Assembly (NCBI GenBank): GCA_003247275.1
Contig: QKAA01000037.1
Span: forward strand, 1 to 13,458
Source of the DNA: a bacterium
Lineage (GTDB): Bacteria; Patescibacteriota; Microgenomatia; UBA1400; RBG-16-45-19
Direction of reading: 5' to 3'
Length of the DNA stretch: 13,458 nt
Shown here: positions 4,579-8,874 of the stretch, one piece after another
How positions within the stretch are numbered: position 1 is the first letter of the stretch
How the letters are laid out: each line of letters opens with the position of its first letter
Translations under genes and position numbers: made by a program
Notes under the pieces: model-generated
Seen by the model: the letters and a program-made list of their open reading frames with translations, nothing else
The model's database searches: none
What the model was told of the DNA's origin: nothing

Positions 4579-6795
4579 TTAACCGTTTCCATTGGCGCTG
4601 GGCCAAGATTGGTGAATCAACAGTGAGTTATCTGTCACCACTTCTTGCCAAATTGCTTCGGTCACAAACGGCATAAACGGGTGCAGTAATCTGAGCCAAG
4701 TTTTTAGTCCCTCAAATAAGACTGTGGTTGAAATTTCTCCTTTTTTGCACTGTTCAATCGCGATATCGCAATACCAATGCCAAAATTCGTTATGAGCTGT
4801 TTCTGCTGCCAACCCAATTTTAAAATCGTTCAACTGTTGAGTGATCAGAGTGATAGTGCGATTAAGATAGGTCGTAAATTCTTCATCATGAACTTGATCG
4901 GTGGTCACAGATTCAGCCTGTTTCATTTGCACAAATCGGGCCGCATTCCACACTTTATTAGTAAAGTTGCGCATGCCCTTCACTTTCATTTCGCCCACCG
5001 CCGAATCATGTCCTGCTGTGGTGCTCATCACCAAAGCCATCCTCAAAGCATCAGCTCCATATTTCTCCACCAAAGTCAGGGGATTAACCACGTTACCTTT
5101 ACTCTTACTCATTTTCTGACCCTTCTCATCTCGAACCAAGCCATGCAAATACACATCCTTAAATGGCATTTTCCCGGTTAAATAAACTCCCATCATCATC
5201 ATTCGCATCACCCAAAACATCAAAATATCATAGGCAGTTTCCATCACCGCGGTTGGGTAGTAATAATCAAAATCTCCTGGCTTATTGGTTTTCAAGGATA
5301 CTACCGGCCACTGGCTTGAAGAAAACCACGTATCAAAAGTATCGGTTTCTTGTAAATAATTCTCACCCGGTTTAGTTCGACTCACCACATAGTCAGCCTC
5401 TTTCGGAGCCGACAAACTTTGCAAGCCCGCTTCAATTTCTTCAATCGAATAACGTTGCAGTAATTCATCAATTAAACCAGTCACCACTTCCTGTTGTTTG
5501 GTAATAAATTTAATCGTTAAATTCGTTTTCGTTGCCTCATACCAAATCGGCATGCGAATACCCCACACAATTTGGCGAGAAATGTTCCAATCATGCAAGT
5601 TAGTTAACCAGTGTTTCAAAATCTTATCGTGACCTGCACCATGCACGGTCGTTTCTTGTCGATCTAAAGCGGCAAGCACGGGTTTGGTTAATGGTTTGAC
5701 CCGAATAAAAAACTGAGCCATGGGTAATGGTTCGATCACGCTGCCACAGCGATAACACGTTGACACATTGTGGTGATAGGCAGAATCGATATGATCCAGT
5801 AGTCCTTTTTCTTTCAATTCAGCCACTGATTTTTCTCGAGCTGGCATCACTTTGAGACCCACATAATCAGGTGAAGTCGTTTCCAACAATCTTCCATCAA
5901 AGCCAATTGCCTGAATAAACGGCAAGTTGTGCCGCTGTCCGATCTCATAATCAGTCGGGTCATGAGCTGGAGTAATCTTTAAGGCTCCAGTTCCAAATTC
6001 TGGATCCACCGCTTCATCAGTAATAATCGGCAATAAAGCTCCAGTTAACGGATTACGTACTTGTCTATCCTTTAATTCTGCTGCCCGAGGATGAGTTGGA
6101 TGAATCGCCACTGCTACATCAGCAAAAATAGTTTCTGGTCTAACCGTGGCCACCATCAGTGGTTCACCGTCGCCCTCCAACGGATAGGTAACGTAATAGA
6201 GCGCATCATCTCGTTCCACATACTTCACTTCTAATTCCGAATAAGCCGTGCCGCATTTAACACAGTAATTAACTAATCGCTCGCCCCGATAAATCAAGTT
6301 GTCACTCGCCATCTTTTCAAAGGTAGTTAACACTTGATCGACGACGTCTGGATCAAGGGTAAATTTATACCGCTCCCAATCAGCACTAGCCCCCAACTGT
6401 TTCATTTGATCTAAAGCCACACTGGAATTTTCATGCACATAATCCCAAATCGATTGATACAGCGTTTCCCGATCAAATTGGAACCGTGATTTACCTTCTT
6501 TGGACAACTTCTTTTCAAACACATACTGGGTTTCAATGCCGGCGTGATCTGTTCCCGGCACCCAAAGTGAGGCTTCACCCAACATTCGGTGATACCGAAT
6601 CAACATATCCTCAATTGAAACAAACATCGCGTGACCCACATGTAGCGGGTCATTAGCATTTGGTGGTGGCATGATGATACAAAATGGTTTTTTGCCATCA
6701 GCACTACTAGCTTCAGGTGCAGCAAAAGCATTGGCCTCTTGCCACTTTTTGTAAATAGTTGTCTCAAATTGAGAGTGTTCGTATCGAGAATCCAT
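4579..6795 (-). CDS. valS: Valyl-tRNA synthetase, compact form
   Basis: Class I aminoacyl-tRNA synthetase charging tRNA-Val with valine. The HIGH motif is HVGH (52-55) in PPPNANDPLHVGH, followed by WVPGTDHAGIETQ (78-90), which marks ValRS rather than IleRS or LeuRS. The CP1 editing domain spans about 190-345 with TVRPETIFADVAVAIHP (217-233) and GTGALKITPAHDPTDYE (268-284). Two CxxC pairs, CVKC (178-181) and CYRC (347-350), flank it and could hold zinc. WNISRQIVWGIRMPIW (403-418) and KMSKS (561-565) complete the catalytic core. At 738 residues it is shorter than typical bacterial ValRS (about 870-950) and stops just after the anticodon-binding helices, so the C-terminal coiled-coil tRNA arm is missing. 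The start at 6795 has GGAGGG eight bases upstream. A T-box leader precedes it. Confidence 0.96.
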   Translation of the reverse strand: MDSRYEHSQFETTIYKKWQEANAFAAPEASSADGKKPFCIIMPPPNANDPLHVGHAMFVSIEDMLIRYHRMLGEASLWVPGTDHAGIETQYVFEKKLSKEGKSRFQFDRETLYQSIWDYVHENSSVALDQMKQLGASADWERYKFTLDPDVVDQVLTTFEKMASDNLIYRGERLVNYCVKCGTAYSELEVKYVERDDALYYVTYPLEGDGEPLMVATVRPETIFADVAVAIHPTHPRAAELKDRQVRNPLTGALLPIITDEAVDPEFGTGALKITPAHDPTDYEIGQRHNLPFIQAIGFDGRLLETTSPDYVGLKVMPAREKSVAELKEKGLLDHIDSAYHHNVSTCYRCGSVIEPLPMAQFFIRVKPLTKPVLAALDRQETTVHGAGHDKILKHWLTNLHDWNISRQIVWGIRMPIWYEATKTNLTIKFITKQQEVVTGLIDELLQRYSIEEIEAGLQSLSAPKEADYVVSRTKPGENYLQETDTFDTWFSSSQWPVVSLKTNKPGDFDYYYPTAVMETAYDILMFWVMRMMMMGVYLTGKMPFKDVYLHGLVRDEKGQKMSKSKGNVVNPLTLVEKYGADALRMALVMSTTAGHDSAVGEMKVKGMRNFTNKVWNAARFVQMKQAESVTTDQVHDEEFTTYLNRTITLITQQLNDFKIGLAAETAHNEFWHWYCDIAIEQCKKGEISTTVLFEGLKTWLRLLHPFMPFVTEAIWQEVVTDNSLLIHQSWPSANGNG

Positions 6796-7014
6796 AAAAA
6801 TAGCCCTCCAACTGTTCTAATGTTGAAAGGCCGTTTGTTGTAAACGCGGTACCACCTTACTTTTCCCTTGCTAAAAAGCGCAGGACTCATTCTCCAGCTA
6901 TCACGGGCCTACCCGGGAGCATCTACTTTTAGCTTTAAACCGCCAATTTCTCACTCCACCTTGTGTTTTAAAAACACGATTCGGTTGACTAGACCGACGT
7001 TGGTTTTACTACTT
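6796..7014 (-). promoter_or_regulatory. T-box riboswitch leader of valS
   Basis: The minus strand carries the T-box signature AAGGTGGTACCGCG (6858 to 6845), close to the consensus AGGGTGGNACCGCG. Its TGGT (6854-6851) is complementary to the ACCA end of an uncharged tRNA with discriminator A, as expected for tRNA-Val. Flanking GTAA/TTAC can close the antiterminator helix. The 5' part resembles Stem I: AAGTAGTAA near the start (K-turn-like strand), a GTGAGAA element (6953-6947) and an AAACC/GGTTT helix. The best specifier candidate is GTA (6926-6924), a valine codon, in AAAAGTAGATG. GCT (6932-6930) is an alternative register but would not fit the gene. The T-box identity is strong; Stem I details and the specifier are inference. 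Confidence 0.9.
6803..6831 (-). promoter_or_regulatory. Hairpin covering the valS Shine-Dalgarno (sequestrator of the T-box)
   Basis: On the minus strand GCCTTTCAAC (6831-6822) pairs over ten positions (two of them G-U) with GTTGGAGGGC (6812-6803) across a nine-base loop. The 3' arm contains the Shine-Dalgarno GGAGGG (6809-6804) placed eight bases before ATG 6795. The tract after the hairpin is TATTTTTAT, so weak terminator action cannot be excluded, but burying the RBS points to translational control. A small CGTTT/AAACG hairpin (6846-6832) would compete with the antiterminator strand. Confidence 0.65.
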
Positions 7015-7020
7015 GAGGTT

Positions 7021-7026
7021 ATTATA
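7021..7026 (-). promoter_or_regulatory. -10 box for the valS T-box transcript
   Basis: A perfect TATAAT on the minus strand (7026 to 7021) predicts a start near 7014, just upstream of the AAGTAGTAA element of the leader. No good -35 is visible; that position falls on the stop codon region of the VanW-family gene. valS may also receive read-through from that gene, as no terminator separates them. Confidence 0.6.
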
Positions 7027-7044: not shown

Positions 7045-8874
7045 TTATTGTTGAGGCCCACGCAAGTACACGGCAGCCCACGGCTTATACGTCGTCACAA
7101 AGGTTTGATCTTGTAATACTTCGTTGCCTCGCACTACCGTATAGGTAAATTTTGCTTTTGCTCCCGAAGCTCTCCAATCAATTTGTTTAACTTGTCCTGG
7201 AGCTAGCGTCGGATCATCAATATATACATCGGGCGGTGGGGGAGTCACATCCCATACCACATGGTCAGTGATCGTTGCCACTCTGCCATCGTCCGTTCCA
7301 AAAAAGAGGACCTTCAACGTTAAATTTTCCGTATCAGTTTCAGTCTGAATCAAAATATGACCCGGAGTATCGTTCACAAATCGAAAATCAGTAGTCGGCG
7401 AATAGACCGTTGCATCAATCCCTGCTTTAACATCTTGTTCATAATAGCCCACTCGGTAAGCATGACCTCGTCTCATGGTAATCGGTAAACCCGCATTCAA
7501 AGCGGCCCGAAACACGGTGGTACTATCCTGACAAACGCCTCCTCCATCACCTAATTCCGTTCGACCATTTTGAATAATATATGCGGCCTTGTAGCCCGTT
7601 GCTCCCGAAATTTCTCCCACCGCTGCATTAAACGAAAATTCTTCTCCTGGTTTAATCAAGGTTCCATTCAATCGCGAAGCTGCCAAAGCCACATTATAAA
7701 CTCTGGATGCAATACTTCCTTTAAACGAACTAGTCCCCACCCCAATGACTTCTTTAATCCCTAATCGATTGACTTCTGCCAACGAAACTTCAGGTTGAGT
7801 TTCTCCATAAGCAAGCTCGATAGTTTTTTCTCCACTCTCGACTTCCAATTCCTTCAATGCGGCAACCATGGTTGCAAGGGAAGAAGCTACATTAATTTGT
7901 AAGCCTGGTTCCGCTGGCACAAACTCCACCACTTTTTGGCTCGTCTCATCAAACTGAAACACAGCATTTTGTGGTGCCTGATCAATTGAGCTGGCCACCG
8001 AAGTTAAATATTCAGTTAATAAATCCTCATTAAAACCTCCATCAAAACGAATAAACGGCAACAATTCTTCACCACTTAACTGCCATTGCTGAGCTGAAAC
8101 CACAGCATTTTCTGGAGAAAATTGAATCACCAAAGTCGAAGCAAGCAACATGTTAGCGCGCTCAGCCGTTTGATCCAACTGCTCAGCTGTATAGTCCATC
8201 GTTTCTACTTTCATTGGCAGTTGCCGTTCGGGGAGGCGCAGTTGAGAAATTGCCGCCGCAAACGATTCCTTCCACCGCTGCTGGTCTAACACCCGGCCAT
8301 TTTCTCCAGGAACTACCTTTGCTACAGTCGTTTGATTTTCGTCATTCAGTATTAATTGTGGCGGGACAGCAGGGACATCAGCCTCAGCCGATAGCGAAGC
8401 TGCCACACTCATCAACCACTCATCATCAACCTCGGCTGGTAATGCTACTTGAGTCGGAGCATAAACCAACGCAGCCAATTCCTTGAGTCCCACCAAAGAC
8501 ACTGACCGGCCCACATTCATCGCTTGGGCTACCGCTCCCTCAATGTCATAATCGATCGCTTGTTCATCAAAACTAACACTTAGCCAATGACCATCATCTG
8601 ACAATACTAATGGCCATTGCTGACGATAAGCCGTTACCGAATTAGTCAGTAATAACTCCGCTTCAGAGGCAGATAACCCTCCAACCGCAAATGAACCTAT
8701 TCGTACTCCCGGGTAAATCTGGTTGTGATAAGACACTGTCAATAACAGTAACCCCAATAAACACAAAATAACTACTCCACCAATGCCTCCAGCAATAAAT
8801 CCGAAAAACGATTTACGTGGCACATGAATGTGAGATCTCATTTTGTGATACAGATTGACTAAAAAAGTGGTCAT
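7045..8874 (-). CDS. VanW/YoaR-family membrane-anchored cell-envelope protein with C-terminal G5-like domain
   Basis: This 609-residue protein has a short basic N-terminus, one membrane helix (24-48), and an external part. YPGVRIGSFAVGGLSASEA (54-72) is the usual entry into a YoaR-like putative peptidoglycan-binding (PF12229) region; two such units seem present, at about 65-190 and 230-345. The VanW domain spans about 380-515 with the signature GDGGGVCQDST (443-452), including Cys448, then RAALNAGLPITMRRGH and a DFRFVNDTPGHILIQ ending. Residues 538-600 look like a G5 domain (VVWDVTPPPP, then TYTVVRGNEVLQDQT). The biochemical role of VanW is not established; the architecture suggests wall binding or remodelling at the cell surface. 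The name does not imply vancomycin resistance, and no van genes are nearby. No Shine-Dalgarno is visible before ATG 8874. It lies upstream of valS on the same strand. Confidence 0.88.
   Translation of the reverse strand: MTTFLVNLYHKMRSHIHVPRKSFFGFIAGGIGGVVILCLLGLLLLTVSYHNQIYPGVRIGSFAVGGLSASEAELLLTNSVTAYRQQWPLVLSDDGHWLSVSFDEQAIDYDIEGAVAQAMNVGRSVSLVGLKELAALVYAPTQVALPAEVDDEWLMSVAASLSAEADVPAVPPQLILNDENQTTVAKVVPGENGRVLDQQRWKESFAAAISQLRLPERQLPMKVETMDYTAEQLDQTAERANMLLASTLVIQFSPENAVVSAQQWQLSGEELLPFIRFDGGFNEDLLTEYLTSVASSIDQAPQNAVFQFDETSQKVVEFVPAEPGLQINVASSLATMVAALKELEVESGEKTIELAYGETQPEVSLAEVNRLGIKEVIGVGTSSFKGSIASRVYNVALAASRLNGTLIKPGEEFSFNAAVGEISGATGYKAAYIIQNGRTELGDGGGVCQDSTTVFRAALNAGLPITMRRGHAYRVGYYEQDVKAGIDATVYSPTTDFRFVNDTPGHILIQTETDTENLTLKVLFFGTDDGRVATITDHVVWDVTPPPPDVYIDDPTLAPGQVKQIDWRASGAKAKFTYTVVRGNEVLQDQTFVTTYKPWAAVYLRGPQQ

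Follow-up and report, generated by a model that had tools for sequence, protein, structure and literature searches.

Does a CPR bacterium control the synthesis of its valyl-tRNA synthetase (ValRS) with a T-box and, if so, what form does the T-box take? The question is raised by the window analyzed here, a stretch of 13,458 nucleotides from a draft MAG of 696 kb (89.8% complete) of a probably host-dependent bacterium, in which the minus strand carries a leader that follows a VanW-type gene (stop at 7045) and precedes valS (start at 6795). A sequence-only reading had placed a T-box before valS at 6796 to 7014, called the genome CPR-like, and considered T-boxes unfamiliar in this group. According to the available text of PMC11665869, a paper on CPR, CPR cells are for the most part unable to make amino acids; T-boxes are not mentioned in that text. 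We found no description of T-boxes from CPR, Patescibacteria, or Microgenomates in the open-access literature searched; Rfam and TBDB may already hold some.

A T-box leader upstream of valS

Searching the whole window with cmscan returned an RF00230 match at 6824-7025 on the minus strand (43.8 bits, E 4.7e-7). The Rfam check proposed in the sequence-only reading is thereby positive, with a score below the Rfam gathering cut-off of 93 bits, which is a curation threshold and not a biological criterion: 9 of 286 CPR genomes have matches above it, versus 93 with any match. We built a second model, R1, from 22 T-boxes with ultrashort Stem I from other genomes (11 of them upstream of ileS), excluding all sequences of the source genome. 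In a search of six loci, R1 recovered the valS leader with 42.1 bits and an E of 1.4e-9, a rough value owing to a shortened calibration. The stability of the leader by plain RNAfold is ordinary (z -0.68) and hence uninformative, so the evidence consists of profile matches and comparative data rather than folding energy. When the 5' leader was dinucleotide-shuffled 5000 times, 2.4% of the shuffled sequences contained a hairpin with a Val codon followed by A at the end of its loop. With both model matches and the T-box core in place, the presence of a real T-box in a CPR genome is confirmed at the level of sequence comparison. A TATAAT element at 7026-7021 puts the inferred transcription start near 7014, in agreement with the extent first proposed for the leader. 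The predicted parts are collected in Table 1. The S-turn and the IIA/B sequence CGGGUAGGCCCG, which may form a pseudoknot, are present in the Rfam and R1 alignments. Elsewhere in the window, a weak sR5 snoRNA match at 1354-1399 on the minus strand (E 0.74) was taken as chance.

Table 1. Predicted elements of the valS leader, in window coordinates (minus-strand elements, listed 5' to 3' along the transcript).
Element	Position	Strand	Basis
Probable -10 element TATAAT, with a start predicted near 7014	7021..7026	-	Consensus reading of sequence
Stem I region, predicted three-way junction	6958..7004	-	RNAfold and suboptimal folds
Stem I base helix ACC/GGU	7004-7002 / 6960-6958	-	Predicted fold
Specifier hairpin UCGGU[CUAGUCA]ACCGA	6981..6997	-	G002 loop identity, covariation, tRNA-Val GAC in genome
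Specifier codon GUC, then A	6989-6987	-	Within loop CUAGUCA
Accessory hairpin GUGUUU[UUA]AAACAC	6963..6977	-	Folding; competes with extended-stem fold
Stem II: GGAGU/GCUCC, UUGGC/GCUAA; S-turn-like GAGAAA / AAGUAGA	6916..6957	-	Rfam and R1 alignments, fold
Stem IIA CGGG-UAGG-CCCG, 5' part of IIA/B element	6904..6915	-	Rfam and R1 alignments
Stem III region	6864..6885	-	cmscan alignment
T-box core AAGGUGGUACCGCG	6845..6858	-	Rfam, R1, tRNA-Val end
UGGU, complementary to tRNA-Val A73-CCA	6854-6851	-	Genome's own tRNA-Val(GAC)
Antiterminator	6827..6858	-	Sequence; weak alone, -1.9 kcal/mol
Antiterminator A1 AAGG/CCUU	6858-6855 / 6830-6827	-	Sequence
Antiterminator A2 CGUUU/AAACG	6846-6842 / 6836-6832	-	Sequence
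Competing hairpin GCCUUUCAAC/GUUGGAGGGC	6803..6831	-	-13.5 kcal/mol; 5' arm common to antiterminator
Shine-Dalgarno GGAGG in 3' arm of competing hairpin, 9 nt from AUG	6809-6805	-	Sequence
UAUUUUU directly after hairpin, directly before AUG	6796..6802	-	Sequence
valS, 738 aa, regulated gene	4579..6795	-	ValRS comparisons

The source genome contains three T-boxes on three contigs, upstream of valS, ileS, and serS, with a near-identical Stem IIA motif in all three leaders. The ileS leader rises from 36.2 bits with RF00230 to 73.1 with R1; the serS leader scores 33.0 bits. The tRNAs of the same genome fit two of the three elements: tRNA-Val(GAC), with A73, suits the valS specifier GUC and UGGU, and tRNA-Ser(GGA), with G73, suits the serS specifier UCC and UGGC. 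The ileS T-box (L002:1627-1648) combines loop AUC with a UGGA bulge that calls for U73. The single tRNA-Ile found, with anticodon UAU, carries A73, which UGGA leaves unpaired, and tRNA-Ile(GAU) was not found in the draft genome.

Stem I of the valS leader and the compact T-boxes of CPR

The Stem I region of the valS leader spans about 47 nt (7004-6958), and the long Stem I with its elbow-binding distal part is absent. In the actinobacterial class II form, the specifier lies near the apex of Stem I, and the window's short Stem I likewise has it close to its tip. Folded from the predicted start at ~7014, the region prefers a three-way junction (-9.7 kcal/mol) over an extended single stem (-8.4 kcal/mol); with a few more 5' bases the order flips (extended stem -11.3, three-way junction -9.4 kcal/mol). 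When trimmed to 62 nt, the genome's own serS leader is predicted to form a base helix topped by two hairpins, one of them with the specifier; in longer context both hairpins are kept and a different base pairing is preferred. The three-way junctions of valS and serS are predictions, made for leaders that have no close relatives for comparison.

G002, a genome of the same order, has exactly the specifier loop CUAGUCA in its valS leader, closed by a different stem (UUGGA/UCCGA, versus UCGGU/ACCGA in the window). Pairing in this helix reaches 88% across five valS leaders, versus 63.9% after shuffling, with a covariation score of 0.700 versus 0.215; 1 of 500 shuffles scores as high, and slid versions reach at most 0.100. 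When nine valS leaders are aligned with two out-of-register rows retained, none of 500 shuffles attains the paired cells or the score, 29 match the double-change pairs, and 57 match the pair types. A further valS alignment of mixed loop lengths was out of register and was discounted. In an alignment of 22 leaders, pairing reaches 98.5% in the lower Stem I helix, whose three pairs all show double changes. In the upper helix it is only 68.2%, owing to Val rows that are out of register, and pair types are not above shuffles (308/500). R1 aligns its Stem I to the accessory hairpin of the window, the loop of which holds no Val codon.

By sequence, the window has no recognizable K-turn, since neither flank of the specifier hairpin (AACG and AUCG) offers a GA/AG internal loop, and a non-canonical kink is possible. 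The valS leaders of G002, G011, and G036 carry K-turn-like flanks, GAUGA on the 5' side and a GAG- or UAG-type sequence on the 3' side. Among the CPR leaders viewed by eye, many begin with a helix of 3 bp, followed by a K-turn-like GA motif and by a short hairpin with a codon and A at the end of its loop.

How common are such leaders? The notion that T-boxes are unfamiliar in CPR does not survive the survey. Within the order, 26 of 37 genomes, the source genome included, have an RF00230 match at E <= 1e-3, and the 93 of 286 genomes drawn across the phylum were counted at E <= 1e-4. R1 matches 32 of 37 order genomes (E <= 0.01) and 27 of 96 phylum genomes (E <= 0.001). Among named genomes, grouped by their record titles, RF00230 matches 11 of 16 from CPR and 23 of 23 from Chloroflexota. 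In the order and phylum surveys, 5 of 14 control genomes also have RF00230 matches. Using match length as a proxy for Stem I length, the CPR matches have a median of 186.5 nt, with 106 of 160 at most 215 nt, versus a median of 274 nt in Chloroflexota, with 5 of 135 at most 215 nt (135 of 143 matches used). The 160 CPR leaders examined in detail come from the listed matches, the weaker ones of the 286-genome survey being left out. R1 also finds matches in 12 of 13 Chloroflexota genomes (best 47 bits), 26 of 27 of which coincide with long RF00230 matches.

Two sets of leaders were used to ask whether the loop of the short hairpin holds the codon of the downstream gene. In the first, a codon-blind rule based on K-turn flanks located a hairpin in 53 of the 160 leaders, 38 of them with an assigned amino acid; the cognate codon followed by A was present in 24 of 38 loops, whereas permutation gave 9.9 on average and never more than 19 in 20,000 rounds, a test not independent of the rule, which was set after the leaders had been viewed by eye. 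Counting distinct loops only, 17 of 31 are cognate versus 5.9 permuted. The 24 cognate loops comprise 13 Ile, 5 Val, 2 Gly, and one each of Arg, Thr, Pro, and Tyr. Three of the 14 misses are aspS leaders (in G296, G104, and G223), in which loops CAAACA or AAAACA show the Asn codon AAC; this would suit an AspRS-type enzyme that charges tRNA-Asn as well. In the second set, 13 leaders found later by R1 only and labeled by eye, the same rule located nine hairpins; seven are cognate with A or G next (permutation fraction 0.0044) and five with A alone (0.020), the cognates covering Ile, Val, Arg, and Asp. These 13 were drawn from 15 loci after excluding L347, the gene of which is unclear, and L348, the label of which was partly guessed. 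None of the three leaders of the source genome, which lack K-turn flanks, meets the rule, and the test excludes them.

Two other ways of choosing the hairpin were abandoned. A looser rule (3-bp stems, no energy limit, hand-cut stretches) gave nine cognate hairpins out of nine in 14 leaders, again without L347, and was superseded by the strict one. Taking the lowest-energy hairpin regardless of flanks gave 25 of 91 cognate, with ProRS and GlyRS lumped (permuted mean 10.1, maximum 20 in 5000); it often picked the wrong hairpin and was therefore replaced by the K-turn-flank rule.

These comparisons place the valS leader in a compact, widespread CPR class with an ultrashort Stem I, as judged from sequence, and the compact form, rather than the mere presence of T-boxes, is the real novelty. 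In the literature consulted, short Stem I is described for translational T-boxes, mostly of Actinobacteria (PMC7583486, PMC10651847), a K-turn is considered essential for short Stem I, and contact with the tRNA elbow is considered essential for transcriptional T-boxes. The available text of the TBDB paper (PMC7778990) associates transcriptional T-boxes with a longer Stem I and describes a class II model run on Actinobacteria and on class I matches with truncated Stem I. Compared with the class II ileS elements of Nocardia farcinica and Mycobacterium tuberculosis, as described in excerpts of PMC7583486 and PMC10651847, the CPR leaders have a similarly short Stem I without the IDTM, a Stem II with S-turn, a IIA/B element, an antiterminator-type core, and, in many cases, a K-turn-like GA motif. 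They differ in that they serve several amino acids and that most of those examined have intrinsic terminators; the window differs further in its missing K-turn and predicted accessory hairpin. With the class I transcriptional T-boxes of RF00230 in Bacillota and Chloroflexota, the CPR leaders have in common the core, the UGGN rule, the terminator/antiterminator pair, and aminoacyl-tRNA synthetase targets; class I differs in that its Stem I is long and carries the specifier in an internal loop. A compact, terminator-linked T-box would call into question the requirement for a long Stem I and elbow contact in transcriptional T-boxes.

Targets are not limited to synthetases: in other CPR genomes, argG, argH, and trpE have T-boxes. 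In the same order as the window, leaders of 245-308 nt (L004-L013) are long-Stem-I T-boxes scoring 72-102 bits; the scanned representatives of the genes that follow have no Pfam or NCBIfam match, some are GNAT- or synthetase-like by eye, and they may belong to tRNA-dependent pathways. In G008, a compact T-box (L348) with loop CUGACAA (GAC, Asp) precedes a gene that is aminotransferase-like by eye.

Probable transcription termination and possible Shine-Dalgarno masking

By sequence and energy, the 3' half of the valS leader is predicted to adopt two mutually exclusive structures, as the CCUU arm is required by both the antiterminator and the competing hairpin. The competing hairpin has a predicted energy of about -12.5 to -13.5 kcal/mol, and the antiterminator helices reach -1.9 without tRNA; given -13.5 versus -1.9 kcal/mol, the default state is predicted to be OFF. 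The unpaired probability of GGAGG is 0.0 in the free leader and 0.08-0.62 with the antiterminator enforced. By default, the competing hairpin would form, and both a stop to transcription and a mask over the ribosome-binding site would be possible. Judging from conservation and covariation, GUC at the end of the 7-nt loop may pair with the anticodon of tRNA-Val(GAC), and, by analogy with the known T-box mechanism, UGGU would pair with the free A73-CCA end only in the absence of attached valine. This pairing would stabilize the weak antiterminator, which would capture CCUU and open the competing hairpin, turning valS on. We consider it probable that the leader is a compact T-box in which uncharged tRNA-Val(GAC) raises ValRS synthesis by opening a hairpin that serves as both terminator and Shine-Dalgarno mask.

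Which of the two functions dominates? Among the 152 of 160 CPR leaders with a recognizable T-box motif, a hairpin below -8 kcal/mol followed by a T-run is found in 138, compared to 25 of 152 dinucleotide-shuffled sequences; at -12 kcal/mol with a T-run, nine of 152 shuffled sequences remain. In the subset with a K-turn hairpin, terminators are found in 45 of 52 real versus 8 of 52 shuffled leaders, and at -15 kcal/mol in 36 versus none. The ileS and serS leaders of the source genome end in hairpins of -12.5 and -9.1 kcal/mol followed by U7 and U6, with a separate Shine-Dalgarno sequence downstream. Termination is favored on account of these sister leaders and of most CPR leaders examined; transcription attenuation, with the Shine-Dalgarno mask as a second lock, is the most likely mode for valS. 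The U-tract of valS, UAUUUUU, is imperfect. We regard it as rather unlikely that the switch is purely translational, with a hairpin that masks the Shine-Dalgarno sequence while RNA polymerase reads through. The location of GGAGG inside the 3' arm, predicted to be fully sequestered in the free leader, agrees with such a mode, as does the fact that most translational T-boxes have an intermediate or ultrashort Stem I (PMC7583486); the stable hairpin running directly into UAUUUUU, the separation of the two functions in ileS and serS, and the terminators usual in the CPR leaders examined speak against it, with the caution that some shuffled sequences form comparable hairpins.

It is improbable, in our estimate, that the leader is a decaying T-box that has kept its core, lost its K-turn, and no longer responds to tRNA. 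Decay would account for the missing K-turn beside the GAUGA/GAG-like flanks of G002, G011, and G036, for the 29 valS loci, among the 30 best matches in the order (the window's own included in the 30), that show no T-box core by pattern, and for the ileS bulge at odds with the only tRNA-Ile found. It fits poorly with a valS leader that retains intact its specifier loop, S-turn, IIA, T-box, and antiterminator/terminator overlap as well as the match to the discriminator. The window is a natural test of a question posed in PMC7583486, that is, whether a T-box can function without a K-turn. More tentatively, with our doubts outweighing our confidence, we envisage that the CPR T-box was reduced to a general ultrashort Stem I that reads many tRNAs and stops transcription without elbow contact, and that the lineage of the window may have gone further, losing the K-turn and adopting three-way junctions in valS and serS, with another geometry docking the codon on Stem II.

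A close comparison is provided by Gottesmanbacteria valS leaders (UBA5942, UBA6580, and NC_groundwater_1910), which have the specifier hairpin GUCUGA[CCAGUCA]UCAGAC. Like the window, they present GUC followed by A at the loop end and the IIA sequence CGGGUNNGCCCG; unlike the window, they have K-turn-like flanks and a U7 tract that runs straight into AUG, with no GGAGG.

Host and history of the valS T-box

The proposed CPR host is upheld by ValRS, which places the window in Microgenomates. The window's ValRS is 60% identical to that of RBG_16_45_19, 54-58% to named Microgenomates lineages, and 35-43% to Chloroflexi, and in a quick tree it falls inside a clade of 42 Microgenomates rows. The sequence-only reading had staked its claim on a significant covariance match and on a host outside Firmicutes and other phyla in which valS T-boxes are common; both hold, the sub-cut-off score aside. 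The sub-threshold Rfam score and the MAG origin could be cited for a chance resemblance, or for contamination by a phylum rich in T-boxes; either is very improbable given significant matches with two models, three T-boxes on three contigs, a ValRS inside Microgenomates, a VanW-valS gene order seen by eye also in RBG_16_45_19, and homologous valS leaders in the same order.

What would such a switch report? The IlvC C domain and the IlvD N domain, representing the pathway genes searched, have no match in the 89.8%-complete genome and were found in 14 of 14 controls, which fits a valS T-box sensing valine supply rather than synthesis. By extension, CPR T-boxes would report amino acids supplied by the surroundings or a host and offer a readable record of shortages in uncultivated cells.

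The sequence-only reading had left two origins side by side, inheritance from an ancestor and acquisition with the synthetase. G001, the only family-mate searched, has a ValRS and a valS upstream region identical to those of Microgenomates bacterium RBG_16_45_19; it has no T-box match with RF00230 or R1 and no T-box core at valS by pattern. That the window holds the only valS T-box of its order, considered for a time, was refuted when R1 added those of G002, G011, and G036. These three ValRS are nearest to the window's, together with those of G028 and G316, which are without a T-box (support 92, not starred). In the quick tree, the Microgenomates ValRS with T-boxes form two groups, one with the window, G002, G011, and G036 (plus G028 and G316) and one of Gottesmanbacteria; a 31-row group lies beside both, and the core pattern was seen in none of its members. 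The grouping of carriers speaks more for a T-box that moved along with its synthetase and was lost in places than for a separate new acquisition. A T-box-bearing ancestor with later losses is a reasonable reading of a quick tree that, beyond the order, includes only T-box-bearing valS from other CPR and no non-carriers.

Two further observations concern the surroundings of valS. Several Microgenomates valS genes (L266-L294) have TATAAT a few bases before ATG, suggesting leaderless transcripts. The gene preceding the Gottesmanbacteria valS T-box (L039, L042, and L068, the three leaders compared above) ends, by eye, like a tyrosine recombinase, a possible mobile context.
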